DNA of 64,000 nucleotides. Source: Phycicoccus sonneratiae. Lineage in GTDB: Bacteria; Actinomycetota; Actinomycetes; Actinomycetales; Dermatophilaceae. The stretch lies in contig NZ_JAFDVD010000012.1 in the NCBI RefSeq assembly GCF_016887965.1, positions 62,001 through 126,000 of the forward strand, written 5' to 3'. The notes beneath the pieces are model-generated. The model saw only the letters and a list, made by a program, of their open reading frames with translations. It had not been told where the DNA came from and made no database searches. The position numbers and the translations under genes are program-made. Below, one piece after another: positions 16,018-36,825 of this stretch (position 1 is its first letter; each line of letters begins with the position of its first letter).

Positions 16018-16929
16018 TCACATGTTCGAGAAGGCGTCCATGATCTGGATCGCACCCGGGCCGATGATGACGATGAACAGCGCCGGGAAGATGCACAGGA
16101 GCAGCGGGAAGAGGATCTTGACGGTCACCTTCTGCGCCTGCTCCTCCGCGCGCTGACGGCGCACGACGCGCATCTCCTTGGTCTGCTCGCGCAGGACGCC
16201 GGCGATCGGGAGGCCGAGCCGGTCGGCCTGGACGAGCGTCGACACGAAGTTCTTCAGCTCGGGCGCGGTCGTGCGCTCGCCGAGGGAGGAGAACGCCTCG
16301 CCGCGCGACTTGCCGATCTGCATCTCGGACAGGACGCGGGCGAACTCGCCGGCGATCGGGCCGGTGACCGTCCGGGCCACCTGGAGGATCGCCGCGTCGA
16401 AGCCCTGACCGGCCTCGACGCAGACCGTGAGCATGTCGAGCGCGTCGGCCAGGCCCTTGCGCATGTCCTGCTGGCGCTTCATCCCGGCGTTGTAGACGAG
16501 CAGGTCCGGGAGGAAGAACCCGGCGGCGCCCGCCGCGAGCGCGATGAGCAGGCTCTTGACGCTGAAGCCCATGACGAGCAGCACGACGATCACGCCGAGG
16601 ATGAGGCCGAGCCCCTTGGCGCCCATGACGCGCTCGACGGTCCACGCCTGCGGGTTGCCGGCCCGGTCGAGGTTGCGCGCGATCCGCCCGCCGGTGCCGG
16701 CCGGGGAGATCCGGGCCGAGAAGCCGCGCAGCCGCTCGAGCATCGGGGCGAGCAGCCGCTCCTGGACCCCGAGCTCGTTGCGGGCGACCTCGCGGACGGT
16801 CGGCTTGTGGTCGAGCAGCTCGAGGGAGCGGGCGACACCGGTCGAGCTGTTCGCGCCCAGGCCCACGGCGAGGACGAGGAGCACGAGCGCGAGGCCGATG
16901 AAGCAGACGGCGGCGAGCAGGAGGATCAC
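16018..16929 (-). CDS. tadC: Tad pilus inner-membrane platform protein TadC
   Basis: 303 residues with an N-terminal membrane helix (ILLLAAVCFIGLALVLLVLAVGL), a mid-protein membrane pair (LGLILGVIVVLLVMG, LLIALAAGAAGFFLP), a T2SSF cytoplasmic domain (ALDMLTVCVEAGQGFDAAI ... FVSTLVQADRLGLPIAGVLREQ) and a last helix (FPLLLCIFPALFIVIIGPG). TadC pairs with TadB as the platform on which the ATPase TadA works to polymerise Flp pilin. It is the last gene of the operon, one base after the VWA-TadB stop. GTG 16929 is the start. Confidence 0.93.
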   Translation of the reverse strand: MILLLAAVCFIGLALVLLVLAVGLGANSSTGVARSLELLDHKPTVREVARNELGVQERLLAPMLERLRGFSARISPAGTGGRIARNLDRAGNPQAWTVERVMGAKGLGLILGVIVVLLVMGFSVKSLLIALAAGAAGFFLPDLLVYNAGMKRQQDMRKGLADALDMLTVCVEAGQGFDAAILQVARTVTGPIAGEFARVLSEMQIGKSRGEAFSSLGERTTAPELKNFVSTLVQADRLGLPIAGVLREQTKEMRVVRRQRAEEQAQKVTVKILFPLLLCIFPALFIVIIGPGAIQIMDAFSNM

Positions 16930-16930
16930 G

Positions 16931-18943
16931 TCACACCTCGATCTTGACGATCTTGCGCATCCAGAGGATGCCGAGCCCGATGGCGACGATTCCCGCCGTG
17001 AGCATGAACAGGCCGATGGTGCGGGTCCACAGCAGGCTGACGTACGCGTGGTTGGCCCACGTGCTGTAGAAGAACAGGCCGATCGGCAGGCCGACGAGGG
17101 CGTAGGCCGAGAGCCGGCCCTCGGCGGAGAGCGCCTTGACCTGGCGGCGCAGCATCTCGCGCTCGCGGAGCGTGGCCGCGGTCGTGCGCAGGGTCTCGGC
17201 GAGGTTGCCGCCGACCTCGCGCTGGATGCGGATGGCCATCGTCGTCCAGCGCATGTTGTGGCTGTCCATGCGCAGCGCCATCTTGTCGAGCGCGTCGCTG
17301 ACGTCGGCGCCGATGCGCGCCTCGGCCAGGGCCCGGCTGAACTCCTTGGCGGCCGGCTCGGGCGCGTCCTTGGCGACCGAGTCGAGGGCCTGGAGGAGGC
17401 TGAAGCCGGAGGCGAGCGAGGTCGCGACGAGCATCATGACGTCCGGCAGCACGGTCTCGAACTTGCGGGCCCGCCGCTTGGCGAGGAAGCGCAGGACGAA
17501 CGGCGGGGCGATCGCGCCGAACACGAGGCCGAGGACGCCGCCGATGATCGGGTGCGAGCCGAGCAGGAGGATGCCGGCGGCCAGGCCGATGACGAGGGCG
17601 ACGAGCCGCATGACGAGCCACTCCCCCGCGCGCCACGGCAGGTCGGCGCGGACGAGGAGCTCCATCGTCCGGGTGGTCGAGTCGCGACCCTCCATCAGCT
17701 GCTCGCCCATGCTGACGATGGACTCGCTGATGGCCGACGCGCTCGCGGCCTGCCGCTGCGGGGACCGGGCCTTGCCGAGGCCGTAGTCGTCGATGGCCGA
17801 GATCCGCTCGCTGCGCTTGCTCCGGAAGGTCGGGGCGGCGAAGGCGATCGAGAGGACGAAGACGCCGATGAACACGACGGCCACGGCCGGGACGAGGAGG
17901 GCGGGCGAGAGCGCGGTGAGCGACGCGAGGGCGGCCGGGGTCTCGTCGAGGTCCGGGGCGACGAGCGGGCCGTCGTCCTCCGGCACCTCGACGGGCGCGG
18001 TGTCGCCGAGGTTCAGCTCGGAGGTGTTGTGGAAGGCCTGCCCGGAGGCGGTGCCGTCGACCTTGAGGGTCTGGGCGCCGCCGACGTCCGCGGGCTTGGT
18101 GATGGTCAGCCGCACCTGCGAGTTGAGCGCGACGGCCGCGGCCGAGAACGCCGAGGCGACCGCGGCCCGGTCGGCGGCGTTGGCCACCGAGCCACCGCCG
18201 GCGTCCGCGAACTGCTGGAGCACGGCCGTGTTCGCCTCGCCGGAGTTGAACGAGACGACCTCGGCACGGACCTTGGCGCGGGTCAGGGCCCGCAGCGCGG
18301 CCTGGCGCTGGCTCTCGGCGCGGGCGTCGCCGCCCTCCATCGCCGCGACGGTGTCGCCACCGTCGCTCAGCAGCAGGAGGCTGCGCTCGCCCTTGGTGCC
18401 GAGGCCGCGGACCGCGTCCTGCACACCCTTGTAGAGGGAGGTCTCGCCGCCCGAGCGCAGCGAGTTGACCGCCCGCGACACCTTCCCGCGGTCGGTCGTC
18501 GGGGCGACGTCGATGCCCGAGGTCGAGGCGAACGAGACGACGCCGACCTTGACGTCCGACGGCGCCTCGGCGAGGAACTTCGCGACACCGGCGCGGACCG
18601 TGGCCATGCCGGAGGCGCCCATCGAGCCGCTCGTGTCGATGACGAGCATCGTCGAGCGCGGCTGCTTCGAGGGCTCGGAGACGGTCACCGGCACGAGCCG
18701 CGAGCCGAAGGTCGCCGTGACGGACTTCCAGTCGACCTTGACCGCGCTGCGCGGGCGGAGCACGAGCGTCGCCGTCACCGTGTCCTTGGCGACGCGCACG
18801 TCGCTGAGGGTCGACGGGATGCCGTCGGCCGCGACCGCGGCCGGGGCGCCGAGGGCGGGGACGAGGAGTGCGGCGAGGGTCGCGAGCGCGACCGGCGCCG
18901 CGGACAGCCGCCGGCGCACGGAGCGGGCGGGAGCAGGGCTCAC
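16931..18943 (-). CDS. VWA domain-TadB fusion, Tad pilus platform protein
   Basis: 670 residues joining two modules. The N-terminal half has a signal sequence (VALATLAALLVPALGAPAAVAA) and an extracytoplasmic von Willebrand A domain with MIDAS motif DTSGSMG near residue 104, the conserved Thr in GGETSLYKG and Asp in LLLSDGGDT, then a beta-rich linker. A membrane segment (LLVPAVAVVFIGVFVLSIAF) leads to a TadB-type T2SSF half (LPDVMMLVATSLASGFSLLQALDSVA ... MRWTTMAIRIQREVGGNLAETL) with further helices. The MIDAS could bind metal and an external ligand or pilin. Start GTG 18943 overlaps the tadA stop (GTGA). The fusion appears intact, with no frameshift. Confidence 0.92.
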   Translation of the reverse strand: MSPAPARSVRRRLSAAPVALATLAALLVPALGAPAAVAADGIPSTLSDVRVAKDTVTATLVLRPRSAVKVDWKSVTATFGSRLVPVTVSEPSKQPRSTMLVIDTSGSMGASGMATVRAGVAKFLAEAPSDVKVGVVSFASTSGIDVAPTTDRGKVSRAVNSLRSGGETSLYKGVQDAVRGLGTKGERSLLLLSDGGDTVAAMEGGDARAESQRQAALRALTRAKVRAEVVSFNSGEANTAVLQQFADAGGGSVANAADRAAVASAFSAAAVALNSQVRLTITKPADVGGAQTLKVDGTASGQAFHNTSELNLGDTAPVEVPEDDGPLVAPDLDETPAALASLTALSPALLVPAVAVVFIGVFVLSIAFAAPTFRSKRSERISAIDDYGLGKARSPQRQAASASAISESIVSMGEQLMEGRDSTTRTMELLVRADLPWRAGEWLVMRLVALVIGLAAGILLLGSHPIIGGVLGLVFGAIAPPFVLRFLAKRRARKFETVLPDVMMLVATSLASGFSLLQALDSVAKDAPEPAAKEFSRALAEARIGADVSDALDKMALRMDSHNMRWTTMAIRIQREVGGNLAETLRTTAATLREREMLRRQVKALSAEGRLSAYALVGLPIGLFFYSTWANHAYVSLLWTRTIGLFMLTAGIVAIGLGILWMRKIVKIEV

Positions 18944-20340
18944 GTCAGCCTCGCCCCGGTGACGAACAGCTGCGGGGCCACCTCGACGCCGAGGTCCTGG
19001 AGGTCGGTGAGGAACTTCGGCCGCAGACCGGTGGAGATGAGGGTGCCGCGGAAGCGGCCGTTCTCGTCACGGCCGGCGCCCCAGTCGAAGGTGAAGATGT
19101 CCTGGAGGGTGACGACGTCGCCTTCCATGCCGACCACCTCGGTGATCGCGACGATGCGCCGCGAGCCGTCCTTGAGGCGGGCCTGCTGGACGATGAGGTC
19201 GACCGCGCCGGCCACCTGCTCGCGGATGGCCCGGACCGGCAGCTCGACGCCGGCCATGAGGACCATCGTCTCGAGGCGGGAGAGCGAGTCGCGCGGGGTG
19301 TTGGCGTGGACGGTCGTGATCGAGCCGTCGTGGCCGGTGTTCATCGCCTGGAGCATGTCGAGCGCGGCGCCGTCACGGACCTCGCCGACGACGATGCGGT
19401 CGGGCCGCATGCGGAGGCTGTTCTTCACGAGGTCGCGGATCGCGATCGAGCCCTTGCCCTCGATGTTCGCCGGCCGGGACTCCAGGCGCAGCACGTGGTC
19501 CTGGTGCAGCTGGAGCTCGGCGGCGTCCTCGATGGTGACGATGCGCTCGTCCTCGGGGATGAACGAGGAGATGACGTTGAGGGTCGTCGTCTTCCCCGAG
19601 CCCGTACCGCCGGAGATGATGATGTTCCGCCGACCGATGACGCAGGCGCGCAGGAAGTCGCGGACGCTGGCCGTGATCGTCCCGAAGGCGATGAGGTCGG
19701 CGTCGGTGTAGGGGTCCTGGGAGAACTTCCGGATGGTGAGCATGGCGCCGTCGAGGGCGATCGGGTTGATCACCGCGTTGACGCGCGAGCCGTCGGGGAG
19801 GCGGGCGTCGACGAGCGGGCTGGCCTCGTCGACGCGGCGGCCGACCCGGCCGACGATCTTGTCGATGACGCGGCGCAGGTGCGCCTCGTTCGAGAAGTGC
19901 GTCTCGACCCGGTAGAGCTTGCCGGAGCGCTCGACGTAGATCATGTCGGCGCCGTTGACCATGATCTCGGAGATGTCCGGGTCGCGCAGCAGCGGCTCGA
20001 GCGGGCCGTGGCCGAGGATCTCGTCCGAGACCTCCTGGGCGATGCGGGTCCGGTCCGCGTGGCTGAGCGGCGTCTGCTCGGCGTCGATCGTCTCCTGGAG
20101 GGTGGTGCGCACCTGCTGGGCCAGCTCGGCCTCGGGCAGGTGGGGGTCGTAGAGGCGCGGCCCGAGGTGGTCGATGAGGGCCTGGTGCACGCGGCCCTTG
20201 ACCTCCGAGAACGGGTCGAGGACCCGGCGCCGGGCCGCCGCGCCCTGCCGGGCGGTGCCGGTCGAGGCGGAGGGGTCGGTCGTGGCCGTGGCGGCCGCCT
20301 GGGCGCGGCGGACGCTGTCGAGACGGTCGGCGAGGCTCAT
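18940..20340 (-). CDS. tadA: Tad pilus assembly ATPase TadA/CpaF
   Basis: 466 residues of the secretion-ATPase GspE/VirB11 superfamily. An N-terminal helical domain (LSHADRTRIAQEVSDEILGHGPLEPLLRDPDISEIMVNG) precedes the motor with Walker A GGTGSGKTT, Asp box (IEDAAELQL), Walker B (RIVVGEVRDGAALDMLQAMNTGHDGS) and a His box (TTVHANTPRDSL). It supplies energy for Flp pilus polymerisation. ATG 20340 overlaps the tadZ stop (ATGA). All catalytic motifs look intact. Confidence 0.96.
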   Translation of the reverse strand: MSLADRLDSVRRAQAAATATTDPSASTGTARQGAAARRRVLDPFSEVKGRVHQALIDHLGPRLYDPHLPEAELAQQVRTTLQETIDAEQTPLSHADRTRIAQEVSDEILGHGPLEPLLRDPDISEIMVNGADMIYVERSGKLYRVETHFSNEAHLRRVIDKIVGRVGRRVDEASPLVDARLPDGSRVNAVINPIALDGAMLTIRKFSQDPYTDADLIAFGTITASVRDFLRACVIGRRNIIISGGTGSGKTTTLNVISSFIPEDERIVTIEDAAELQLHQDHVLRLESRPANIEGKGSIAIRDLVKNSLRMRPDRIVVGEVRDGAALDMLQAMNTGHDGSITTVHANTPRDSLSRLETMVLMAGVELPVRAIREQVAGAVDLIVQQARLKDGSRRIVAITEVVGMEGDVVTLQDIFTFDWGAGRDENGRFRGTLISTGLRPKFLTDLQDLGVEVAPQLFVTGARLT

Positions 20341-21515
20341 CGACGGCTCCTGAAGAGGCCCTTGCGCGCGGCGGCGTCGCCGTGGTCCGGCTCCTCGCTC
20401 GCGCGCTGGGTGCGGATGTGGGACTCGACGAGCTCCTTGATGGCGACCGCGACCGGCGCCTTCGGCTCGTCGAGGACGATCGGCACACCCCGGTTGACCG
20501 ACGCGGGGACGGTCAGCGAGTTCGGGATGTTGACGGCGATGCCGGTCTTGATGGCCGACTCGACGTCCTCGGGACGCAGCCCGACCTTCGTGTCGGCCTT
20601 GTTGAGCACGATGACGCGGGCGTCCTTCGGGCTGCCGATCATGTCGAGCGTGTCGAGCGCGACGCGCAGGTTCTTCACCGCGGGGATGTCGAGCGTGGCG
20701 ATGAGCACGAGCGCGTCCGAGACGTCGATCGAGGCGAGCACGTGCTCGGTGAACGACGGCGGGGTGTCGATGAGGACGTAGTCGTAGCTGCGCCGGGCGA
20801 CCTTGATGACCTCGGCCACGGTGGGCACCGGGATGCGGTCGGCGTCGCCGGGGTCGTTCGGCGCGCAGAGCACGTCGAGGCCGCTCGGCTCGTGACGGGT
20901 CACCAGGCTGCGCAGCGCCTCGTCGTCGAGGTTCCCCGACATCGAGACCGCGTCGAAGATCGACTGGTGCGGCACGAGCTGCAGGCTGATCGCGACGTCG
21001 CCGAAGGACAGGTCGAGGTCGACGAGCAGGGTGCGGTGCCCCTCGCTCGCGAGCGCCACGGCAGCGTTCGTCGAGAGGGTCGTCTTGCCGACGCCGCCCT
21101 TGGCAGAGAAGACCGTGACGACCTTGCCCTCGCGGGCGGCACCGCCACCGGCGTGGCCGATGAGGCGGGAGGTCAGCTCGCGGCTGCGCCGCAGCGCGTC
21201 CGCGATGGCCGTGTGGTCGTCGGCGCCGACGACCTCGCGCACACCGGCGCGCAGCGCCTGCGAGAGGGTCGTGACGTCGATCCGGCTGCGCAGGAGGATG
21301 ACTCCGAGCTCCGGACGGTCGAGGCGGGCGGCCTCGGAGAGCTGGCAGGCCTCCTCCACCGGCACGTCCGCACCGATGACGACCTGCTCGACCTGGGGGT
21401 TGTCGTGCAGCGCGCGGGCCACCATGCCCGAGGAGTCGAGGGCCGTGGTGTCGGGACCCAGCGCGAAGCGGTAGCGCTCCAGGGCCGAGGGGTCGGGGTC
21501 CCAGAGGATGTTCAC
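20337..21515 (-). CDS. tadZ: Tad pilus localisation ATPase TadZ/CpaE
   Basis: 392 residues. An N-terminal receiver-like domain (about 1-125, with VEQVVIGADVP, LGVILLRSRIDVTTLSQALRAGVREVV) lacks the usual acidic pocket. A ParA/MinD-type ATPase follows with deviant Walker A SAKGGVGKTTLS, switch I and II segments (DLDLSFGDVAISL, DYVLIDTPPS) and VLNKAD. TadZ-type proteins place the pilus machine at a cell site. GTG 21515 overlaps the cpaB stop (GTGA). Confidence 0.94.
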   Translation of the reverse strand: MNILWDPDPSALERYRFALGPDTTALDSSGMVARALHDNPQVEQVVIGADVPVEEACQLSEAARLDRPELGVILLRSRIDVTTLSQALRAGVREVVGADDHTAIADALRRSRELTSRLIGHAGGGAAREGKVVTVFSAKGGVGKTTLSTNAAVALASEGHRTLLVDLDLSFGDVAISLQLVPHQSIFDAVSMSGNLDDEALRSLVTRHEPSGLDVLCAPNDPGDADRIPVPTVAEVIKVARRSYDYVLIDTPPSFTEHVLASIDVSDALVLIATLDIPAVKNLRVALDTLDMIGSPKDARVIVLNKADTKVGLRPEDVESAIKTGIAVNIPNSLTVPASVNRGVPIVLDEPKAPVAVAIKELVESHIRTQRASEEPDHGDAAARKGLFRSRR

Positions 21516-22294
21516 CGGACCTTGTCCTTCAACATCGTCATGTCGCTCACCGACAGGTTCGGGTCGATCTTCAGCTCGGAGCCGCGCAGGCCCGCGTAGA
21601 GCGTGAAGTTGTTGATTCCGTGGACGAGGCGTGCGGCCTGCTCGGGCGTGACCTCGAGGGTCACGAGGAAGCTCGCGGACTGCGCCGCGGCCTCTCCCCC
21701 CTCGCCCGTCGACTGCACCGGCGTGAGCGACGCGTCGCCCATCGCGATGACCTTGACGTTGTCGAGGAGGATCGAGGTGCCGGACCCGACGGCGGTCTTC
21801 TCGGTCTCGCCGCTGCTCTTCTTCTCGAGCGTGGCGAGGTCGTAGGTCATGAAGATCGTCAGCATCGACCCGGGGCGCACGAAGTTGCCGACCCGGGCGG
21901 GGTCCTGGAGCTGCACGGACACCGCGAGCTTGCCGGCGCCGACCTGGAGGGCCTTCTCGCCGACGGGGGTGTCGCCGAAGGCCGACCCGAGGACGTACTG
22001 CCCGGGCGCGATGTCGGTGAGCGCGACGAGGTCGCTGTTGTTCTCGTCGACCCCCTCGAGCGCGCCGACCGGCTTGGCCCGGGCGGCGACGTCGGTCTGC
22101 GTCAGCTGGCCGAGGCGGACCGCGTCCTTGAGCGTCGTGCCGGCGGGGACCACCGAGGTGCTGACGTACACCTTCGTGGGGCTGGCCGCGGCGACCGCGC
22201 GGGCGTCGGCTCCGCGGGCGTAGACGAGGACGAGGACCGCGCCGACGAGGGCGATGACCGCAGCCGCGAGGATGGCGAGGATTCGACGACCCAT
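21512..22294 (-). CDS. cpaB: Flp pilus assembly protein CpaB/RcpC
   Basis: 260 residues. One N-terminal membrane anchor (ILAILAAAVIALVGAVLVLVYA) precedes a SAF domain (KVYVSTSVVPAGTTLKDAV ... ALTDIAPGQYVLGSAF) and the RcpC region (LQVGAGKLAVSVQLQDPARVGNFVRPGSMLTIF ... LVTLEVTPEQAARLVHG). It sits outside the membrane and assists pilus assembly, perhaps by contacting the wall. ATG 22294 has an AGGA site. It is the first assembly gene after the pilin genes, separated from them by two hairpins. Confidence 0.93.
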   Translation of the reverse strand: MGRRILAILAAAVIALVGAVLVLVYARGADARAVAAASPTKVYVSTSVVPAGTTLKDAVRLGQLTQTDVAARAKPVGALEGVDENNSDLVALTDIAPGQYVLGSAFGDTPVGEKALQVGAGKLAVSVQLQDPARVGNFVRPGSMLTIFMTYDLATLEKKSSGETEKTAVGSGTSILLDNVKVIAMGDASLTPVQSTGEGGEAAAQSASFLVTLEVTPEQAARLVHGINNFTLYAGLRGSELKIDPNLSVSDMTMLKDKVR

Positions 22295-22332
22295 GGAAAC
22301 CGTGTCCTAACAGAGGTATGGGGTGCTGGGCG

Positions 22333-22458: not shown

Positions 22459-22659
22459 TCAGATGCTGGTCGCGGCGTCGCGGAAGAAGGTGGAGAGGTT
22501 GCGGCCGAGGATGAACACGGACGCGATGATCACGAGGGCGATGAGGGCGACCATGAGCGCGTACTCGACCGCGGTCGCGCCGCGCTCGCGGGGGAGGCGC
22601 AGGACGCGCTCGACGTGCGGACGGACGCGGAGGGTGGTCCGGGCCAGGAGGGAGGTCAT
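22459..22659 (-). CDS. flp: Flp/Fap-type pilin, second copy
   Basis: 66 residues. A basic N-terminal leader (MTSLLARTTLRVRPHVERVLRLPRERG) precedes the processing site and mature start ATAVEYALMVALIALVIIASVFIL, with Glu and Tyr at the class IVb pilin positions. The tail is very short (GRNLSTFFRDAATSI). The leader is longer than that of the neighbouring pilin. ATG 22659 follows AGGTGA by eight bases; GTG 22671 is also in frame. No prepilin peptidase gene is seen in the window, so TadV must be elsewhere. Confidence 0.9.
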   Translation of the reverse strand: MTSLLARTTLRVRPHVERVLRLPRERGATAVEYALMVALIALVIIASVFILGRNLSTFFRDAATSI

Positions 22660-22756: not shown

Positions 22757-22936
22757 TCAGATGCTGTTGGACACCGTGTTGAACATGGTGGACAGGCGGG
22801 TGCCCAGGAGGGCGACGGCGACGATGATGACGACCGCGATGAGCGCGACCATCAGGCCGTACTCCACGGCGGTGGCGCCCTTCTCGGAGCGGATGTCGGC
22901 GAGCTTGGCCTGGAACTTGACGAGAGCCTTGGTCAT
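22757..22936 (-). CDS. flp: Flp/Fap-type pilin, first copy
   Basis: 59 residues: MTKALVKFQAKLADIRSEKG, then the cleavage site and mature ATAVEYGLMVALIAVVIIVAVALLG, ending STMFNTVSNSI. The E-Y pair and hydrophobic helix are the class IVb pilin signature. AAGGA precedes ATG 22936 by ten bases. It is the first gene of the Tad operon and is probably the major subunit, since its form is closest to the family standard; that choice is inference. The 215-base gap upstream holds its promoter and that of the divergent membrane protein gene. Confidence 0.92.
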   Translation of the reverse strand: MTKALVKFQAKLADIRSEKGATAVEYGLMVALIAVVIIVAVALLGTRLSTMFNTVSNSI

Positions 22937-26006: not shown

Positions 26007-26014
26007 CGACGACC

Positions 26015-28225: not shown

Positions 28226-29736
28226 CGCCGGCGCCGGCGCGGCGCGGGTGGCTGCTCCCGTGGCTGGCGCTGGCCGCCCTCGCCATCGTGCGGGCCGGGG
28301 TCGTCGACGAGCGGGACCCGTACTGGCAGGTGCGGGCCGGGCTCGAGAACCTGCGCGGCGCACCCCTGTCGCGACCGGACTCCTGGAGCTGGGCGCCGGT
28401 CGACCGGCTCTTCACCCAGACCTCCCCGGCGTGGAACGACGCGCTCGCCCTCGGCTGGCGCACGGCCCGCTCCGCCGGCCTCTTCACGGTCTCGCTCGCC
28501 TCCATGCTGCTCTTCACGACCCTCGTGCTCGTCGCCGCGCGACGGCTCGGGGCACGCCCGCTCCCGGCCCTCGGCGGGGTGCTCGCCGTGCTCCTCCTCG
28601 CCCTGCCGATGGTCTCGCCGCGGGCCACGCTCGTCGCGCAGTCACTCTTCCTCGCGGCGGTCCTCGGCACCGACCGGCTCCGGGTGCCGGCGCAGCGGGT
28701 CCCGGCCGTCGTCGTCGGGGCCCTGGCGCTGCTCGGCGGGGTCGTCGTCGCCGGCGCCGGGAGCTGGGTGCACCTGTCCTGGCTGCTCCTCGCCCCGGCG
28801 CTCTGGCTGGCCGTGCTCGTCCTCTGCCTCGCGACGCCGGACCTCGGTCGTGCGCGGACCGTCGCCGCGACGCTGGGCGCCGGGGCCGGCCTGCTCCTGG
28901 GAGTGCTGGTGGGCCCGTACGGCACGCGCGCCTGGGAGGTCACGCGCACCGTGCAGGACGCCGCCGACGGGGTCATCCTCGAGTGGATGCCGCCGACCGC
29001 CGCCGGGCTCGCCGCGCGCTGGGTGCCGACGGCGGTCGTCGCCCTCGTGCTCGCCGGGGCCGGCGCGGTGCACACCGCCCGCCGCTGGGGTGGGCGGGCG
29101 GGCGACCCCCGGGTCGGGCTCGCCGCCGCCCTCCTCGTGCTCGCGATGCCGGCCGCGGTCGGCGGGTTCCTCGGCGTGCGGTTCGTCGGCCTCGCGCTGC
29201 TCACCCTCGCGCCGCTCGCCGGGGTGGGTGCGACCCGGCTGGCAGGTCGGGCCGGTGCCCGGGCCCGGGCGGAGGTGCCGACCGGTGCCTTCCGCAGCCC
29301 GGTCGTCCGGCGCTGGTCGGTCGGCGGGCCGTGGCGCGTCGTCGGGTGGCTGACGCTCGCGCTGCTCAGCCCGCTCGTCCTGCTCGCGGGCGCCCGGCTC
29401 GGCCGGCCCGCGGAGGCCGCCGTCCTCGACGCCCTCCCGCGCGGCTGCCGGCTGGTGTCCGACCCGGCCTCGGCCGGTCCGGTGCTCCTCCTGCGGCCCG
29501 ACGTCCGGGTGTGGATCGACACCCGGGCCGACTACTGGGGAGCCGCCCGCAACCGGGAGGCGCTCGAGGTGCTCGCCGGGCGCTCCACCGACGTGCCGGC
29601 CGTCACGGGGGCGACCTGCGCGATGCTCTCGGCCGCCGACCTGCCGACCGGTGACCTCGCCGCGGCGTTCGACGCCGACCCGCGGTGGCGCGCGACGGCG
29701 AGCGCGCCCGGCCTGCGCACGTGGGTGCGGCGCTGA
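28222..29736 (+). CDS. Polytopic GT-C-like membrane protein, array member 3
   Basis: 504 residues, about ten membrane helices. The first loop has DERDPYWQVRAGLENLRGAPLSRPDSW and TSPAWNDALALGW, related to the WWHLRTG block of the 30568 protein but with Gln in place of His. The extracytoplasmic tail keeps GCRLVSDPASAGPVLLLRPDVRVWIDTRADYWGA-like elements, matching VPVIDGRTELYTP in member 4. GTG 28222 overlaps the preceding stop, so the two membrane proteins are made together. A tandem hairpin repeat follows the gene. Confidence 0.73.
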   Translation: MTPAPARRGWLLPWLALAALAIVRAGVVDERDPYWQVRAGLENLRGAPLSRPDSWSWAPVDRLFTQTSPAWNDALALGWRTARSAGLFTVSLASMLLFTTLVLVAARRLGARPLPALGGVLAVLLLALPMVSPRATLVAQSLFLAAVLGTDRLRVPAQRVPAVVVGALALLGGVVVAGAGSWVHLSWLLLAPALWLAVLVLCLATPDLGRARTVAATLGAGAGLLLGVLVGPYGTRAWEVTRTVQDAADGVILEWMPPTAAGLAARWVPTAVVALVLAGAGAVHTARRWGGRAGDPRVGLAAALLVLAMPAAVGGFLGVRFVGLALLTLAPLAGVGATRLAGRAGARARAEVPTGAFRSPVVRRWSVGGPWRVVGWLTLALLSPLVLLAGARLGRPAEAAVLDALPRGCRLVSDPASAGPVLLLRPDVRVWIDTRADYWGAARNREALEVLAGRSTDVPAVTGATCAMLSAADLPTGDLAAAFDADPRWRATASAPGLRTWVRR

Positions 29737-29904: not shown

Positions 29905-30351
29905 TCAGGCGCCGGGACGGCGGAAGGTCACCCGCAGGTGGCCGAGGAACGAGAAGCCCACGACGACGACGAGGACGAGCAGCTGCGCGACGAACGGGTG
30001 CAACCCGAACGCCTCGACGCACAGCGGGACGCCGACGAGGCTCAGCGCCGCCCCCGTCCACCAGACGCCGAGGAAGGTGGCGAACTGCCGGCCGAGCGGG
30101 CCCTCGGCCGCGAAGACGAGGCCGCGGTAGGCCGGGAACGCGAAGGCGATGGCGCTCAGCTGCGCGGCCGCGAGCCCGACGAGGTAGTGCGCGCCGAGCG
30201 CGAGGGCCGCGCCGAGCACGGAGAGGTAGACGACCTGGGTGACCCCGCCGACGACGCCGTAGCGCACGACGACGGGCAGCGCGGTCCACGCGCGGCGGAC
30301 CCGGCCGAGGTCGGCGGCGACCGGCACGGGGGCCAGGGTCGGCTGGGCCAT
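29905..30351 (-). CDS. GtrA-like membrane protein
   Basis: 148 residues with four membrane helices: RYGVVGGVTQVVYLSVLGAALAL, LVGLAAAQLSAIAFAFP, QFATFLGVWWTGAALSLVGVPL and PFVAQLLVLVVVVGFSFLGH, ending in a short basic tail (RVTFRRPGA). This is the GtrA/DPMS family, whose members are thought to flip or anchor polyprenyl-phosphate sugars made by GtrB-type transferases. A GtrB/ArnC-like enzyme is encoded at 35773, so the two may act in one pathway. ATG 30351 has AAGGAG four bases upstream. Confidence 0.88.
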   Translation of the reverse strand: MAQPTLAPVPVAADLGRVRRAWTALPVVVRYGVVGGVTQVVYLSVLGAALALGAHYLVGLAAAQLSAIAFAFPAYRGLVFAAEGPLGRQFATFLGVWWTGAALSLVGVPLCVEAFGLHPFVAQLLVLVVVVGFSFLGHLRVTFRRPGA

Positions 30352-30521: not shown

Positions 30522-30567
30522 CGCTGCGGCGGGACCCCTGCCCGCAGCCGACGGCGAGGAGCAAGAC

Positions 30568-32028
30568 GTGGACCAGGCCCGGCCCGCCCGCGTCCCGGTC
30601 GCCGACCGGCCGGGCCCGGAGACCGGCGGACGCGTCGAGGGGTCGCGGCGCGCGTCGGGGCTCCCCCTCACCGGTCGCCTGGCCCCCGCCGTCCTCCTCG
30701 TCGTCGTGGCCGCCGTCCAGACCCTGCACGCGGTCGACGACCCCGACACGTGGTGGCACCTGCGGACCGGTGCCGACCTGCGCCGCTCCTTCGAGCTCGT
30801 CGGACCCGACCCGTGGAGCCCGTTCACCACCCATGAGTGGATCCGCCACCAGTGGCTCGGCGACCTGCTCATGGTGACGGTGCACGACGTCGCCGGCCTG
30901 CCCGGCATCGCCTGGCTGGTCACCGCGTTCTCCGTCGTCACCGTCCTCGCCGTCTACGCGGTGGCCCGGCGGCGCGCCTCGGTGCTCGTCGCGACGGCGG
31001 TGGCCGTCGCCGCCCTCGTCGGCGCCTCGATGACCCTCTCGGCCCGGCCACAGTCGATCTCGTTGCCGCTCACCGTGATCGCTGCGGGTGCGTGGCTCTC
31101 GACGGTCCGCGACCTGCGCGCGCGGTGGTGGCTCGTGCCGCTCACCTGGGTGTGGGCCTGCTGCCACGGCTTCTGGTTCCTCGTCCCCGCCCTCGGCGTG
31201 GTGGTCGCCGTCGGGCTCGTCCTCGAGCGGGCGCCGTGGCGGGCCGTCGGGCGGGCCGTGGCCCTGGCCGGGGCCTGCCTCGCGGCGGCGGCGCTCACCC
31301 CGGTGGGCCCGCGTCTGCTCGTCGCGCCCTTCGAGGTCGGCCCGATCACCGGCTTCATCGAGGAGTGGCGGCCGCCGCCCGCCGGCGCGCCCGCGTTCGT
31401 CGCGGTGTGCGTCATGGCCGGGCTCGTCGTCCTGCTCCGCACGGTCGGCGAGCCCCCGCACTGGGCCGAGGTCGGCGTCCTCGTCGTCGCGGGGTACCTC
31501 GCCGTCGCCCACGGCCGGACCGTCTCGCTCGCCGCGCTGCTCCTCGTGCCGCCGCTGGCAAGCGCCCTCCAGGAGCGCCTTCCGTTCGTGCGCGAGAGGG
31601 TCGGCCGCGGCGAGGTCGCGGCCCTCGCCGCCGCGAGCGCGGTCGGCCTCGGCCTCACCGCCGTGCTCGCCCCCGCGCAGGGCGGCACCCCCGACGGCTT
31701 CCCGACGGCCCTCTCCCCCCGGCTGTCGGCCCTGCCAGCCGGCACGGTCGTCTGCGACGACTACGACGCCGGTGGCTGGCTGTGGTGGGCGCACCCGGAC
31801 CTCGTCCCCGTCATCGACGGTCGCACCGAGCTCTACACCCCGGCCGACCTGCGCGCCTACGCAGGCTTCGCCGCGGGCGGGCCGGGGACCGAGGCCGAGG
31901 TCCGCCGCCGCGGGTGCACGGCGGCCCTGCTGCGCGACCCCTCCCCCGCCGCGGACTCGTTGCAGGACCTCGGCTGGCGCCTCGACGGCCGCGCCGACGG
32001 GTGGCAGCTGCTCCGCCCCGGCGGCTGA
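30568..32028 (+). CDS. Polytopic GT-C-like membrane protein, array member 4
   Basis: 486 residues and the best example of the array family. The first loop has VDDPDTWWHLRTGADLRRSFELV and EWIRHQWLGD. About ten membrane helices follow, with a GPITGFIEEWRPPPAGAP loop mid-way. The tail reads VVCDDYDAGGWLWWAHPDLVPVIDGR, then TELYTPADLRAYAGF. The acidic DPD and His of the first loop are as expected for a metal-dependent GT-C active site. The frame is open well upstream, but GTG 30568 has GAGGAG eight bases before it and follows a good -10 box. It converges on the gene at 32039 with a 10-base gap. Confidence 0.77.
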   Translation: MDQARPARVPVADRPGPETGGRVEGSRRASGLPLTGRLAPAVLLVVVAAVQTLHAVDDPDTWWHLRTGADLRRSFELVGPDPWSPFTTHEWIRHQWLGDLLMVTVHDVAGLPGIAWLVTAFSVVTVLAVYAVARRRASVLVATAVAVAALVGASMTLSARPQSISLPLTVIAAGAWLSTVRDLRARWWLVPLTWVWACCHGFWFLVPALGVVVAVGLVLERAPWRAVGRAVALAGACLAAAALTPVGPRLLVAPFEVGPITGFIEEWRPPPAGAPAFVAVCVMAGLVVLLRTVGEPPHWAEVGVLVVAGYLAVAHGRTVSLAALLLVPPLASALQERLPFVRERVGRGEVAALAAASAVGLGLTAVLAPAQGGTPDGFPTALSPRLSALPAGTVVCDDYDAGGWLWWAHPDLVPVIDGRTELYTPADLRAYAGFAAGGPGTEAEVRRRGCTAALLRDPSPAADSLQDLGWRLDGRADGWQLLRPGG

Positions 32029-32038
32029 CCCCGCTGCG

Positions 32039-33823
32039 TCAGCCGCAGCCGAGGGCCGCGGCGACCCCGGGACCGGGACGCAGGACGAGGTGCTCCGTGC
32101 CGGCCGTCGCCGCGTACCCGGTGTACCGGTGGGCGACGACGTAGGCCTCGGCGACGCGGGCCCAGTCCGCCGACCACGCCTCGGCGAGCGACGGTGTGCC
32201 GGAGGCGGGGACGACGAGCCAGGCCCGGGCCCGCTCGGTGCACGGGACCCGGCCGAGGGCCGCCCGCGCCGAGTCCACGCCCCCGTTCCACGACGTGTAG
32301 AAGTGCGCGCGGCCCAACGGCGGCCCGCCGAGCGCGAGCGCGACCGAGGCCTGCGTGCCCGTGAGGTCGACGACCGGCGTCCGGTCGTCGATCCCGCCAC
32401 GCCGGGCGACCTCGTGGAGGGGTCCGAGCACCGCCGCGGCCTCCGGCGTGACGTCGAGCGTCCCGTCGAGGATGCCGACCGGCCGGTCGGCGCGGCTGAC
32501 CTGCGCGCTGCGCGGCCCGTCCCACCACAGCGGCGCGACCATGAGGACGACGCACGAGCAGGCCGCGACGAGCAGGCCGGGCGCGACCGGCGGGAGGTCG
32601 TCCACCACCTGCGGACCCGGACCGGCGACGGGACCGGCGGAGCGGACGACGAGCAGGCCGACGAGGAGGACCCACGCGGCAGCGGTCTGACCCGTCGTCG
32701 TCAGCAGCTCGCGGTTCGAGCCCACCGCGTAGAGGTAGGGCACGAGCGCGACGAGGACGAGGACGGGCAGGACGCGCCGGCGCTGCTCGCCGGTCCAGCC
32801 GCGCAGGACCGGCACGGCCAGCCCGAGCAGGACGACCCCGACCCCGAGCGTCCGGTAGCCGTTCGTCGACCCGGACAGCAGGCCGACGGCCAGCCATGCC
32901 GTCCCGACCCCCACGAGCACGAGCAGGGGGGCGACGATCGCGTCGACCCGCGTGGCGCCGTCGTCGGCGTGGCGGCGCCCGACGAGCCACGCACCGAGCA
33001 CGACGACGAGCGGCACCGCGAAGAGGAGGGCCACGACGTCGACCGGGCCGAGGCCCAGCAGCTGCGGAACGCTCGGGTAGGCACCGGTCCGGCGCACGAC
33101 GTCCAGGCCCCCGGCGAGGTAGCGCCCCGCGTCGCCCGGCGTCATCCGGGCCAGGGCCAGCACGAGCACGGAGCCGGCGAGCAGCGCACCGGCCGCGGTG
33201 AGCAGCGAGCGCAGCGGCGGTCGGACCCACAGCCCGAGCGCGACGACGACGAGCAGCAGGGCCACCGCCGAGGTCGGCTTGGCGACGAAGACGAGGCACG
33301 CGCCCGCCCCGAGGAGGGCGCCGCCACCGAGCGGGCGGCCGCGCTGCACGCGGGCGACGCCCCAGGCGGCGAGGAGCAGGCCGACGAGGGCGAGCGACCG
33401 GTAGCTGAGGACACGGACCTCGAGGAGGAACACCAGCTGTGCGGCGGCGGCCGTGGTCAGCGCGCCGACGGCGAGCGCCAGTCGCTGCGGGCGCGAGGCG
33501 ACCAGCCGCGCTCCCTCGACGAAGCAGCCCGCGGCCACCGCGCCGACGACGAGGTCGCCGACGAGCCTGAAGAGCCCGACGTCGTTGCCGCAGAGGGCGA
33601 GCAGGGGGTGGAGGAGGAACGGGAAGAGGTAGACCTCGCCGGCGGCGACCGACGACCGGGGGTGGCGCACGAGCCGTAGGACGTAGCTCTCGTCGATCGG
33701 GTCCAGGCCGCGCCACGCCGACCCGAGGAGGAGGACGAGCAGCCCCACGGACACGACGCCCGCGACGACGAGCGGGACCCGGGCGGACCTGCCGACGTCG
33801 TGCTGTGCGGCGGCCTCAGCCAC
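32039..33823 (-). CDS. Polytopic membrane protein, probable GT-C-like
   Basis: 594 residues, about twelve helices. The first loop has RGLDPIDESYVLRLVRHP and AGEVYLFPFLLHPLLAL, with acidic residues in the usual GT-C place. A soluble segment near the C terminus contains DGTLDVTPEAAAVLGPLHEV and VDLTGTQASVALALGGPPLG and HFYTSWNGGVDSARAAL. It is the last gene of the minus-strand operon with aminotransferase and acetyltransferase genes, so it may act on the sugar they make. GTG 33823 overlaps the acetyltransferase stop by eight bases. Confidence 0.72.
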   Translation of the reverse strand: MAEAAAQHDVGRSARVPLVVAGVVSVGLLVLLLGSAWRGLDPIDESYVLRLVRHPRSSVAAGEVYLFPFLLHPLLALCGNDVGLFRLVGDLVVGAVAAGCFVEGARLVASRPQRLALAVGALTTAAAAQLVFLLEVRVLSYRSLALVGLLLAAWGVARVQRGRPLGGGALLGAGACLVFVAKPTSAVALLLVVVALGLWVRPPLRSLLTAAGALLAGSVLVLALARMTPGDAGRYLAGGLDVVRRTGAYPSVPQLLGLGPVDVVALLFAVPLVVVLGAWLVGRRHADDGATRVDAIVAPLLVLVGVGTAWLAVGLLSGSTNGYRTLGVGVVLLGLAVPVLRGWTGEQRRRVLPVLVLVALVPYLYAVGSNRELLTTTGQTAAAWVLLVGLLVVRSAGPVAGPGPQVVDDLPPVAPGLLVAACSCVVLMVAPLWWDGPRSAQVSRADRPVGILDGTLDVTPEAAAVLGPLHEVARRGGIDDRTPVVDLTGTQASVALALGGPPLGRAHFYTSWNGGVDSARAALGRVPCTERARAWLVVPASGTPSLAEAWSADWARVAEAYVVAHRYTGYAATAGTEHLVLRPGPGVAAALGCG

Positions 33824-34583
33824 GACGCAGGTGCACGGTGGTCCACGCCGACACCGGTCGGAGCCCGAGGCCGCACCACGCGCGCTGCACGGCGGTGTTC
33901 GAGGCCTGCGTGGAGATGACGAGCCGCTGGCTGCCGGCGGCGCAGGCCGCGCCCAGCACGCCGGTGAGCAGCGCCCGGTAGACGCCCCGGCCGCGGTGGT
34001 CCGGGTGGGTGCCGGCGAGCAGCACCTCGGTGGCCCGCCCGCCGTCGACGCGGGCCGTCGTCGCGACCGCCGCGGGGGCGCCGTCGACGAGCCGGAGGAG
34101 GACCTCCTCCGGGTGCTCCCCGGCGGTGCGACGGGCCCAGTCGACGTAGCCGGCGAGGACGAGGTCGGGCCGGAAGGCGCGGCTCGCGAGGTAGTGCGTC
34201 GGGTAGTCGGCGAAGGTGGCCGCGACGAGGTCCCCCACGGCGCCCGCGAGGTGGGGTGCCTCGGCCAGCGGCACGACGTCGTCGGCGCCGTCACCGCTCG
34301 CCGCGGCCGCGTCGCCCTCCCAGTACACGAGGGTGTCGGCGGGCAGGACCTCGAGGCCGTGCCGCGTGAGCGCGCCGGCGAGCCGCACCCGGTCCGCCGG
34401 CCAGCGGGCGACGAGGACGTCGGGGCGCAGCCGCTCGAACGCCTCGAGGACACCGGCCACGGCCTCGTCGTCGGTGCTCCTCCGACCGACCCGGACCCTG
34501 GCCACGGGGAACCCGAAGCGCCGCGTGTCGACCTCGCTCGCGCTCGCGTCGACCCCGGCCCCCTCGAGGTCGTCCCAGCTCAT
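33816..34583 (-). CDS. WecD-like GNAT acetyltransferase
   Basis: 255 residues. The layout resembles E. coli WecD/RffC: a divergent N-terminal half (VARVRVGRRSTDD, ERLRPDVLVARWPADRVRLAGAL) and a C-terminal GNAT fold with a YPTHYLASRAFRPDLVLAGYVDWARR segment and the acetyl-CoA loop GTHPDHRGRGVYRALL. WecD acetylates dTDP-4-amino-4,6-dideoxygalactose; the WecE-like gene directly upstream makes that amine, which supports the match. ATG 34583 overlaps the aminotransferase stop (ATGA). Sugar identity is inference. Confidence 0.82.
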   Translation of the reverse strand: MSWDDLEGAGVDASASEVDTRRFGFPVARVRVGRRSTDDEAVAGVLEAFERLRPDVLVARWPADRVRLAGALTRHGLEVLPADTLVYWEGDAAAASGDGADDVVPLAEAPHLAGAVGDLVAATFADYPTHYLASRAFRPDLVLAGYVDWARRTAGEHPEEVLLRLVDGAPAAVATTARVDGGRATEVLLAGTHPDHRGRGVYRALLTGVLGAACAAGSQRLVISTQASNTAVQRAWCGLGLRPVSAWTTVHLRRG

Positions 34584-35776
34584 GCCACCGGACGATAGGC
34601 GAGAACCGCCGCGACCACCCGGTCGACGTCCTGGCGGGTCAGGCCCGCGTGCAGCGGCAGCCGCACGAGCCGCGCGGCGACGTCCGCGGTCACCGGGCAG
34701 GGGAACGGCGTGCGGCCGAGCGCCCGGCCGCCCGGCGAGGAGTCGAGCGGCTGGTAGTGGAAGACCGCCGACACCTCCTGCATCCCGAGGTGGCGGATGA
34801 GGCCACCCTGGTCGGCGGCCGACGGGAGGAGGAGGTAGTAGAGGTGGGCCGGGTGCTCCGCGCCGTCCGGCACGACCATCTGCCGCACGCCGTGCGCGGC
34901 CGCCCACGGGGCGAGCTCGGCGGCGTACCGGTCCCAGACGTGGTGCCGGCGGGCCTGGATGTCGTCGAAGGCCTCGAGCTGGGCGACGAGCACCGCCGAC
35001 TGCAGCTCGCTCGGCAGGTACGAGGACCCCTGGTCCTGCCACGTGTACTTGTCGACCTCGCCGCGGAGGAACCGGGAGCGGTCGGTGCCCTTCTCCCGGA
35101 CCACCTCGGCCCGCGCGCGGAAGGCGGGGTCGTTGACGACGAGGGCGCCGCCCTCCCCGCTCGTGACGTTCTTCGTGTCGTGGAAGCTCTGCGTCGCGAA
35201 GGTGCCGAACGACCCGAGCGGTTGGCCGCGCCACGCCCCGCCGAGGCCGTGCGCGTTGTCCTCGACGAGGGCCAGGCCCCGCGCGTCGCAGAGGGCACGG
35301 AGCCGGTCGACGTCGGCGGCGACCCCGCCGTAGTGGACGACGAACACCGCCCGCGTGCGCTCGGTGAGGGCGGCCTCGACGGCGTCGACGTCGAGGTTGA
35401 GGGTGTCCGGGCGGACGTCGACGAAGACCGGGGTCGCGCCCCGGATGGCGATCGCCGTCGCGGTCGAGGTGAAGGTGAAGCTCGGGCAGACGACCTCGTC
35501 GCCGGGGCCGAGGTCGAGGAGCACCGCGGCCAGCTCGAGGGCGTGCGTGCACGAGGGGGTCAGGTGCACGCACCCGCCGCCGAGCCGTTCGCGCAGCAGG
35601 GCCTCGGCCGTCCGGGTGTGGACGCCGTCGCCGTGCCACATCGGCGAGGCGAGCACCTGGGCGAGCAGCTCCTGCTCGCGGCCGGTGCGGAAGGGGGCGG
35701 TGAACCGGACCGGGGCGACGGGGGGCGCGACGGGGGCCGCGGGCCGTAGCCGGGTCCGGGTCGTCCGGGTGGTCAC
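34580..35776 (-). CDS. wecE: DegT/DnrJ-type sugar aminotransferase, WecE-like
   Basis: 398 residues of the PLP-dependent sugar aminotransferase family. Blocks closely match E. coli WecE (RffA), which makes dTDP-4-amino-4,6-dideoxygalactose: LTPSCTHALELAAVLLDL, GDEVVCPSFTFTSTA, VHYGGVA, VEDNAHG, SFHDTKN with the PLP lysine at about K202, REKGTDRSRFLRG and VDKYTWQDQGSSYLPSELQ. GTG 35776 overlaps the preceding stop (GTGA). The dTDP-sugar precursor enzymes RmlA and RmlB are not in the window. Confidence 0.9.
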   Translation of the reverse strand: MTTRTTRTRLRPAAPVAPPVAPVRFTAPFRTGREQELLAQVLASPMWHGDGVHTRTAEALLRERLGGGCVHLTPSCTHALELAAVLLDLGPGDEVVCPSFTFTSTATAIAIRGATPVFVDVRPDTLNLDVDAVEAALTERTRAVFVVHYGGVAADVDRLRALCDARGLALVEDNAHGLGGAWRGQPLGSFGTFATQSFHDTKNVTSGEGGALVVNDPAFRARAEVVREKGTDRSRFLRGEVDKYTWQDQGSSYLPSELQSAVLVAQLEAFDDIQARRHHVWDRYAAELAPWAAAHGVRQMVVPDGAEHPAHLYYLLLPSAADQGGLIRHLGMQEVSAVFHYQPLDSSPGGRALGRTPFPCPVTADVAARLVRLPLHAGLTRQDVDRVVAAVLAYRPVA

Positions 35777-36825
35777 GGATGCTCCGAGAGCGCGGCGGAC
35801 GCCGGCCGGGCCGGGACGTCGAGGAGGGCGGAGGTGGCCAGCGGCTCGGGCCGCACGACGTAGGCGGGGCGCTGCATCGAGCGCACGTGGAGGCGGCCGA
35901 GGTACTCGCCGACGATGCCGATCGAGAGCATGAGCGCGCCGGAGAGGATGCCGAGCATCGCGACGACGGTCGTGAAGCCGGCGACCTGGATCCGGCCGGT
36001 CCAGTACATGCCGAGGACGGCGACGAGCGCGACCGCCCCGAGGACGGAGACGGCGAGGCCGAGCATCGTCACGAGGCGCAGCGGCAGGACGCTGTAGCCG
36101 GTCGCCATGTTCGCGGCGTGCTTGAGCAGGCCGCGGACGGTGTAGTTCGAGGTGCCGACGCTGCGGTGGTCCATCCGGACGGGCACGCGCTCGACCGAGG
36201 TCGTCGCCCAGGACAGGACGACGTCGAGCGAGACGAACGGGTCGGTGACGTGGCTGAAGGCCTCGCGCAGGTCGGTGCGGAAGGCGCGGAAGGCGCTGAC
36301 GTCGCGCGCGTTCGGGACCCCGGCGATGGCCAGCGCGGACTTGACGACGCGGGAGGCGAGCGAGCGGGCCGCGCCGTGCTCCTCGTCGACGGCGACGCCG
36401 TACACGAGGTCGGTGCGGGGGTCGGCGAGCGGCGCCAGCAGGGTGGCGAGCTGGTCGGGCCGGTGCTGGAGGTCGTCGTCCATCGTCACCGTGACGGCGT
36501 AGCGGGCCCGGGCCACCCCGGCGAGCAGGGCGTTGTGCTGGCCGTAGTTGCGCCGCAGCTCGACGACCCGGACGACCTGGGCGGGGTGCTCGGCGGCGAC
36601 CGCGCGGGCGACGGTGGCGGTGTCGTCGGGCGAGCCGTCGACGACGAGGAGGACCTCGTGGTGGGGGGTGAGCGCGGCGAGGGCCGGCACGACGGCGCGG
36701 ACGAGGTCGGCGAGCGTGCCCTCGGAGCGGTAGCAGGGGACGACGACGGAGACGCCGCCCGACCACGGGGAGGCGCCCGAGGGAGCGTCTCCGGCCGCGT
36801 GGGCGCGGGGGTGCGTGTCCGACAC
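35773..36825 (-). CDS. GtrB/ArnC-like polyprenyl-phosphate glycosyltransferase
   Basis: 350 residues. A GT2 domain (VSVVVPCYRSEGTLADLV, LLVVDGSPDDT, RNYGQHNALLAGVARA, VTMDDDLQHRPDQL) precedes two C-terminal membrane helices (LVTMLGLAVSVLGAVALVAVLGMYW, VVAMLGILSGALMLSIGIVGEYLG). This is the layout of enzymes that move a sugar from a nucleotide to undecaprenyl phosphate on the inner face. It begins the operon GT2-aminotransferase-acetyltransferase-membrane protein. GTG 36825 has GGAGGT five bases upstream; the frame extends to 36909 but without homology. Confidence 0.9.
   Translation of the reverse strand: MSDTHPRAHAAGDAPSGASPWSGGVSVVVPCYRSEGTLADLVRAVVPALAALTPHHEVLLVVDGSPDDTATVARAVAAEHPAQVVRVVELRRNYGQHNALLAGVARARYAVTVTMDDDLQHRPDQLATLLAPLADPRTDLVYGVAVDEEHGAARSLASRVVKSALAIAGVPNARDVSAFRAFRTDLREAFSHVTDPFVSLDVVLSWATTSVERVPVRMDHRSVGTSNYTVRGLLKHAANMATGYSVLPLRLVTMLGLAVSVLGAVALVAVLGMYWTGRIQVAGFTTVVAMLGILSGALMLSIGIVGEYLGRLHVRSMQRPAYVVRPEPLATSALLDVPARPASAALSEHP

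Follow-up and report, generated by a model that had tools for sequence, protein, structure and literature searches.

The 64,000-nucleotide stretch of Phycicoccus sonneratiae DNA analysed here (assembly GCF_016887965.1, contig NZ_JAFDVD010000012.1, positions 62,001 to 126,000 of the forward strand; referred to below as the window) carries a Tad (type IVc) pilus locus adjoining an array of large polytopic membrane proteins, four of which (designated G1, G2, G4 and G5) appear to form one GT-C-like family that is strongly linked to tad genes. We propose with moderate confidence that the four are GT-C-type glycosyltransferases dedicated to the actinobacterial Tad pilus, which would move sugar outside the membrane onto Flp pilins or pseudopilins. 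The proposal is based on the genes found, the homology of the four proteins, the residues kept in their predicted outer loops, the match of one orthologue to the PMT_2 family and the linkage to tad. A first-pass annotation had listed the tad, polytopic, GtrA and sugar genes and had suggested a lipid-linked-sugar route acting outside the membrane, perhaps on the pilins; gene calling and Pfam matches located these genes where it had placed them, and two Flp pilin genes that its otherwise correct list had left out were added.

Homology and GT-C likeness of the array proteins

Profile A2, built from G5, G1 and their relatives (43 rows), aligned by hhalign with the profiles of G1, G2 and G4 at 99-100% probability over 424-452 columns; the values were 99.5% (E 2.9e-22, 424 columns) for G2 and 99.0% (E 2.7e-18, 440 columns) for G4. 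These comparisons indicate that G1, G2, G4 and G5 are homologous members of one family, a relationship that we regard as real. At first pass, four of the polytopic proteins had been said to share two sequence blocks; the blocks are literally present only in G5 (DPDTWWHLRTG in the first loop, and GWLWWAHPDLVPVIDGR), G1 having DVDLWLHLRIG and GWVLWAHPGVRVLRDLR, with looser forms in G4 and the weakest in G2. In a tree of 34 relatives, the G1, G2 and G4 rows each formed a supported clade and the G5-like rows did not form a single one; the placement of G2 and G4 is unsafe because of their long branches. G3 and G6, as well as other polytopic proteins of the locus, gave no alignment in the same profile comparison and were rejected as members. 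None of the six polytopic proteins had a match over cut-off in Pfam or NCBIfam, sequence searches of PDB found no relative, and G5 had no match among plasmids.

Likeness to known GT-C enzymes was found at the level of the family. A G1 orthologue from another species of the genus (G005, L046:6498-7868) matched PMT_2 (PF13231) with 29.8 bits, above the curated cut-off of 26.1. Nine further proteins were scanned with it, of which a second G1 orthologue reached a sub-threshold 12.5 bits and the rest had no match. Weak PMT_2 matches were also seen in 7 of the 43 A2 members (best E 0.0015). When compared with 12 ArnT-like PMT_2 proteins of related genomes, the profile of A2 plus G1 gave E 2.3e-4 (44%) and the wider family set E 8e-4 (24%), and the alignment ran in the expected register from the first outer loop to the fourth membrane segment over 120 columns. 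None of the controls (flippase, acyltransferase-3 and ABC-2) did better than E 0.13 with either profile; A2 alone gave E 0.05 with the ABC-2 control.

Examination of an 88-row alignment revealed a set of positions kept in 75 to 87 rows, namely D38 (75), R138 (87), H178 (82), E244 (82) and R295 (87), together with H42, G46, W74 and W245. In A2, D38 is present in 42 of 43 rows and D36 in 26 of 43, making up an acidic motif of the first outer loop, where GT-C enzymes have a D-x-D or a modified form of it. All kept residues map to predicted outer loops in a hydropathy model with hand-set boundaries. For A2, this model has about 11 membrane segments, within the 8-13 taken as the GT-C criterion, and ends in an outer domain of some 120 residues; single-sequence predictions gave 8, 8, 9 and 7 segments for G1, G2, G4 and G5, respectively. 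Together, the profile matches and kept residues support the assignment of the four proteins to a GT-C-like, presumably outward-facing enzyme family.

Linkage of the family to tad genes

The family was searched for in 58 genomes (the host's own and 57 relatives) with G5, which matched 14 genomes, and G2, which matched 13, giving a union of 16. A tadA orthologue (E at most 1e-160) was present in 24 of the 58, and all 16 family-bearing genomes were among these 24, with the family in none of the 34 genomes without tadA (Fisher 9e-9). In each of the 16, reading by hand placed at least one copy on the contig of tadA and no more than 15 kb from it. A class-wide sample of 394 genomes contained the family in 30 (E at most 1e-10); tadA (E <= 1e-125) was found in 28 of these 30 compared with 59 of the 364 others (Fisher 2.7e-18), and a laxer tadA limit of 1e-100 gave 28/30 and 122/364. 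Family gene and tadA were within 20 kb of each other in 16 of the 28 genomes with both, on different contigs in 12 and distant on the same contig in none (by hand). The two misses were G105, which is 86% complete and has its family gene beside two flp genes (L145), and G404, which is among the weakest matches. In a phylum-wide sample of 296 genomes the family was again found in 30; 20 regions of these matches were examined, and in 16 the family gene had tad genes no more than 3 kb away. The other four were L228 (at a contig edge), L246 (a 4.2-kb contig), L239 and L247. The first-pass annotation had named the array proteins occurring mostly without tad genes in relatives as evidence that would count against its reading; this was not what these surveys found.

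Among 51 named loci (from Phycicoccus, Terrabacter, Intrasporangium, Pedococcus, Nocardioides, Marmoricola, Aeromicrobium and others, with two from Chloroflexi), which overlap with the other genome sets in that several genomes are the same, a core tad gene was found within the stretch examined in 36 and lay within 3 kb in 19, with L111 (Chloroflexi) counted on a doubtful flp match. In 26 of 71 loci an flp gene was located no more than 700 bp from the family gene, and in 14 of the 71 it was upstream on the same strand. As a control, PMT_2 proteins were found in 55 of the 58 genomes, and of the 68 matches in the 24 tadA-bearing genomes a single one lay within 20 kb of tadA, this being the G1 orthologue itself (hand count). 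The link to Tad is strong and is a property of this family, not of GT-C enzymes in general. The arrangement varies by lineage, the family gene following flp, following tadC or standing divergent to flp, and because of such repeated re-linking in different arrangements inherited order alone is hard to accept.

Two further observations on gene position were made. In six named loci (L064, L065, L072, L092, L097 and L103) the family gene occurs without a core tad gene in the stretch examined, its neighbours being sahH-mtrA or, not far off, a WhiB-sized gene of 92 residues; these are possibly tad-independent copies, or tad may lie further away. In G035 (C2:3550171-3553866), a PMT_2 protein is encoded at a distance of 2.4 kb from another tadA-like ATPase, which is only remotely related (37% identity).

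The site was also compared with that of genomes without this tadA. In G007, which belongs to the same genus, sahH directly adjoins the presumed response regulator, kinase and mtrA genes; the whole 21-kb block (tad, pilins, array and cassette) is absent at the site, and TadE/TadG are absent from their place too, the DUF5719 counterpart there being recognised by eye. More distant tadA-like ATPases are encoded elsewhere in G007 (best 51% identity, E 1e-108), so that it lacks this tad locus and not necessarily every pilus system. In G012, from another genus, sahH is located beside mtrA. The array, the sugar cassette and the two tad segments are thus absent as a set.

Sugar genes and Flp tails

The small GtrA-like protein passed PF04138, as had been expected, and is a putative flippase for a lipid-linked sugar. 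Of the other sugar genes named at first pass, the WecE-like one passed a dTDP-4-amino-4,6-dideoxygalactose transaminase model (NF008687); the GNAT protein called WecD-like passed only the general Acetyltransf_1 model; and the GtrB/ArnC-like protein is a GT2 (PF00535) whose best NCBIfam model is indeed ArnC, at 138 bits far below the cut-off of 529, with two C-terminal membrane segments by hydropathy. GtrA and a GtrB-like GT2 are present here, and any of several GT-C-like proteins might be their partner in a three-component system.

The stretch from G3/G4 to sahH differs between species of the genus (ten proteins scanned). Elsewhere in the genus it contains GT2s, WbsX, acyltransferase-3, DUF2304, a Gfo/Idh oxidoreductase, an FkbM-like protein (below cut-off) and two flippase-like proteins, one over and one just under the Polysacc_synt_3 cut-off; the window version consists of gtrA, G5 and the operon gtrB-wecE-gnat-G6. 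The genus thus has an enlarged array and a cassette of sugar genes that varies from one species to the next. G3 was found in 8 of the 58 genomes, all of one genus. In G010 (L007, L026, L029), G2, G3, G4 and G6 are each in two pieces, through sequencing error or decay. In G025, of another genus, gtrB, gtrA and wecE adjoin tad genes, and no match to G5 or G2 was found there.

Many relatives have a single family gene beside flp or tadC, and in deep relatives the sugar genes of the window were not detected beside it. Ten neighbours in five deep loci were scanned for families. In L149, L150 and L154, an M48 peptidase gene adjoins the family gene, along with one further matchless protein each and no sugar enzyme; in L142 (3595-4725) and L143 (12952-14085), both from small genomes, a GT4 glycosyltransferase gene next to flp is convergent with the family gene. 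The notion that family genes of deep relatives are free of any sugar gene was dropped, as it failed in these 2 of the 5 scanned loci.

At family-bearing loci, the tails of the Flp pilins have a higher Ser/Thr fraction (0.29 vs 0.19, p 1e-4), and an N-x-S/T sequon is present in 43 of 86 tails vs 10 of 53 at other loci. Neither was accepted as proof of glycosylation, because both are confounded by ancestry and tail length. In Aeromicrobium, three Flp paralogues of L084 end with N-I-T-T, and L096 has one such pilin and one ending with N-L-H-T; these ends form a possible C-terminal N-x-T site.

Proposed function and alternatives

Glycosylation by three components, GtrA, GtrB and a GT-C enzyme, is a known scheme. 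Applied to the window, 1) a cytoplasmic GT2 (here GtrB) would load the sugar, probably a 4-acylamino-4,6-dideoxyhexose made by WecE and GNAT, onto polyprenyl phosphate, 2) GtrA would flip the lipid-linked sugar, and 3) the GT-C enzymes, with the active site on the outer face, would move the sugar from the lipid to Flp pilins (or TadE/TadG) before or during pilus assembly. The fold, the catalysis, the donor, its flipping, the order of the steps and the acceptor are all predicted parts of this scheme, and it is we, following the first-pass suggestion, who infer that the sugar goes onto the pilins. The lipid-linked-sugar route suggested there fits gtrA, gtrB, wecE and GNAT and is retained in outline; some of the models matched are general ones, and the cassette varies with the species. 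Many relatives have a single family gene next to which no sugar gene of the window's kinds was detected, so that their donor would come from another part of the genome.

A wider version of this proposal is put forward tentatively. The family may be the missing Tad-pilus glycosyltransferase, an old GT-C enzyme for Flp pilins (or pseudopilins) that occurs across the actinobacterial phylum beside flp or tadC. In Phycicoccus-type genomes it would have expanded into an island of pilus glycan genes, in which the sugar genes are replaced from species to species; every species would then have a distinct pilus coat, one use of which might be protection from pilus phages.

Several observations weigh against glycosylation of the pilus by this family. 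The window's own four family members, G1, G2, G4 and G5, match nothing in Pfam, PMT_2 included, so that the search against GT-C families is positive for one orthologue and leaves the window proteins themselves unmatched. The top profile match to PMT_2 proteins reached only the 44% given above; seven shorter PMT_2 proteins matched worse (E 0.0095 with A2 plus G1, 0.051 with the wider set). Used by themselves, the profiles of G2 and G4 gave E 0.083 and 0.057 with the ArnT-like set, no better than controls. Two phylum-wide loci, L239 and L247, have no tad gene nearby, 15 of the 51 named loci have no core tad gene in the stretch examined (some are cut by contig ends), and distant relatives with 24-26% identity occur in two Chloroflexi records (L110, L111). 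Because the genomes are related, the Fisher values are too small and overstate independence. The median Ser/Thr count of the Flp tails is equal at the two kinds of loci (4 vs 4), since the tails of the other loci are longer (22 vs 14 residues), in a comparison that ignores ancestry. Lastly, 59 of the 87 tadA-bearing genomes of the class sample are without the family, which is therefore not needed to build Tad pili.

It is conceivable, although unlikely, that the array serves to build or alter a polysaccharide of the cell surface, as polymerase, ligase or side-branch enzymes, and that the Tad pilus is a co-regulated or polymer-using neighbour and not the acceptor. The tad-to-sahH stretch does vary between species of the genus in the manner of a surface-polysaccharide locus (GT2s, WbsX, acyltransferase, flippase-like, DUF2304, Gfo/Idh), wecE and GNAT are enzymes of polysaccharide type, and the convergent GT4 gene of L142 and L143 points the same way. 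In other deep loci, however, the family gene comes after flp, a response regulator gene or tadC, and the scanned neighbours (L149, L150, L154) are not sugar enzymes; L235, L236, L238 and L243, counted by position alone, have the same order. The family moreover tracks the presence and absence of tad, and array, cassette and tad are jointly absent in G007.

A role as a non-catalytic Tad accessory of GT-C descent, acting in pilin handling, assembly or retraction much as TfpY does, is in our view clearly unlikely. Such a role would agree with the tight linkage to flp and tadC, the weak scores against catalytic families and the poor keeping of the blocks in G2 and G4, but the acidic, R, H, E-W and R positions are kept in most of the 88 rows and lie in predicted outer loops, and the 59 of 87 tadA-bearing genomes without the family argue against an essential assembly factor. 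Less likely still is an acceptor other than Flp for the GT-C enzymes, either some other secreted protein or the TadE/TadG tip proteins. TadE/TadG genes have gone from their place along with the block in G007 and lie near the family gene in several loci, but in 26 of the 71 loci mentioned above it is flp that stands at most 700 bp away, in 14 on the same strand and upstream.

Organization of the window

The host genome comprises 4.1 Mb in 33 contigs (75% G+C), with the window on contig C29. Gene order was obtained by codon-based gene calling of the window (Table 1). From left to right, genes that we take to be mtrB/mtrA, a histidine kinase and a response regulator are followed by tadC, vWA-tadB (a fusion of a von Willebrand A domain and TadB), tadA, tadZ and cpaB on the minus strand, the two Flp pilins (-), G1 (+), G2 (-), G3 (+), G4 (+), gtrA (-), G5 (+), the overlapping minus-strand operon gtrB-wecE-gnat-G6, and sahH. 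The start of Flp pilin 1 is 215 bp from that of the divergent G1, a pilin-adjacent gene as for TfpW-type enzymes. Beyond sahH are genes for a GT87 protein and a PIG-V-like protein (below cut-off) and for phosphomannose-type enzymes. A further segment at 49.8-54.4 kb, 13 kb past the main block, has two genes for TadG-like proteins and two for TadE, and is flanked by manB and a DUF5719 gene.

Table 1. Features of the tad locus, the polytopic array and the sugar genes (coordinates in the window)
Feature	Coordinates	Strand	Basis
TadC (T2SSF)	16018..16929	-	PF00482 67.1 bits vs cut-off 25.2
TadB with N-terminal von Willebrand A domain	16931..18943	-	VWA_2 and T2SSF over cut-off
TadA/CpaF ATPase	18940..20340	-	PF00437 217.6 bits vs cut-off 24.9
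TadZ/CpaE ATPase	20337..21515	-	AAA_31 and CbiA over cut-off; name from position
CpaB/RcpC	21512..22294	-	PF16976 61.9 bits vs cut-off 28.8
Flp pilin 2	22459..22659	-	PF04964 49.6 bits vs cut-off 32.2
Flp pilin 1	22757..22936	-	PF04964 59.7 bits vs cut-off 32.2
G1, polytopic, Tad-linked GT-C-like family	23152..24561	+	hhalign 100% to profile A2 (G1 is a row of A2)
G2, same family, divergent	24578..25957	-	hhalign; G2 search matches 13/58 genomes
G3, unrelated polytopic protein	26015..28225	+	no Pfam/NCBIfam match over cut-off
G4, same family as G1/G5, divergent	28222..29736	+	hhalign
GtrA-like small membrane protein	29905..30351	-	PF04138 48.3 bits vs cut-off 26.1
G5, family type member	30568..32028 (alternative start 30634)	+	profiles A1/A2, conserved residues
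G6, polytopic, last gene of gtrB operon	32039..33826 (alternative start 33823)	-	overlaps GNAT gene; no family match
GNAT acetyltransferase, WecD-like	33816..34583	-	Acetyltransf_1 28.2 bits vs cut-off 20.7; WecD models below cut-off
WecE-like sugar aminotransferase	34580..35776	-	NF008687 479 bits vs cut-off 375; TIGR02379 421.9 vs 434.85
GtrB/ArnC/PgfS-like GT2	35773..36825	-	PF00535 82.1 bits vs cut-off 23.3
Tad (TadG-like) protein	49852..51438	-	PF13400 42.4 bits vs cut-off 22.3
Tad (TadG-like) protein	51655..53298	-	PF13400 46.3 bits vs cut-off 22.3
TadE pseudopilin	53295..53828	-	PF07811 44.5 bits vs cut-off 22.9
TadE pseudopilin	53864..54379	-	PF07811 32.5 bits vs cut-off 22.9

Of the Tad (type IVc) set, tadA, tadB, tadC, tadZ, cpaB, flp and tadE/G were all found in the window. 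No prepilin peptidase gene is present in the locus, and PF01478 has its sole match in the genome on contig C21. The Tad machine next to the array had been described as complete; its tad genes are there, and the word is too strong because tadE/tadG are set apart at 49852-54379 and the one prepilin peptidase match is on another contig. A relative of the vWA-TadB fusion in L169 also appears, by eye, to have a vWA-like part and TadB. In other actinobacterial tad operons (L169, L173, L175, L177, L180, L185, L192 and L150), a polytopic protein of 500-525 residues is encoded 5′ of cpaB, mostly with a neighbour of 235-250 residues; considered as a rival GT-C, it was rejected as being, by eye, an ABC-2-type permease.

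Relation to known systems and significance

According to the part of PMC11841053 consulted, TfpO and TfpW are pilin glycosyltransferases encoded among pilin accessory genes of Pseudomonas type IVa pili, TfpW being named a GT-C enzyme. Glycosyltransferase genes would serve as pilin accessories in the same way in the array, whereas here the pilus is of the Tad/IVc type, mature Flp has about 40 residues, the phylum is another, and there are up to four paralogues and a sugar cassette; TfpW and the family are likened by description and gene position, not by sequence. For CsbB-YfhO and GtlA-GtlB, the portion of PMC5836110 seen proposes that a GT2 loads the C55-P sugar and a GT-C enzyme transfers it outside. 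This scheme of GT2 plus GT-C and the acidic motif in an outer loop resemble what we describe, but the acceptor there is lipoteichoic acid, and YfhO and GtlB are likened to the family by description only. With ArnT and PMT_2 proteins, the family shares the one orthologue over cut-off and the in-register alignment over 120 columns; it differs in that the window members are unmatched and in its about 11 segments and own 120-residue C-terminal domain.

As regards Tad pilins, Flp1 of Aggregatibacter actinomycetemcomitans is stated to be glycosylated in the sections seen of PMC6182317, and RcpC, once implicated in this, is described as an alignment complex in those seen of PMC12307814; no enzyme is named for Flp1 glycosylation in these parts of the two papers. 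Flp1 is a Tad pilin like those of the window, but from a Gram-negative organism. Among the literature matches listed, judged by title and start of abstract and including few subscription papers or bioRxiv preprints, none concerned a Tad-linked GT-C family or glycosylation of actinobacterial Tad pilins, and the text of PMC4322843, on Micrococcus Flp pili, contains no word starting with "glycos". Glycosyltransferases among pilin genes and pairs of GT2 and GT-C are already known; the new part is a Tad-linked GT-C-like family without a name.

This family, found in Nocardioides, in Terrabacter and as far as families beyond the class, provides a concrete gene to test for Tad pilin glycosylation, and its gene neighbourhood can help to annotate many "hypothetical membrane proteins". 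With relatives beside pilus genes in many actinobacteria, the array proteins are candidates for the enzyme that adds sugar to Tad pili, and in Gram-positive bacteria such pili may be decorated with sugars that vary.

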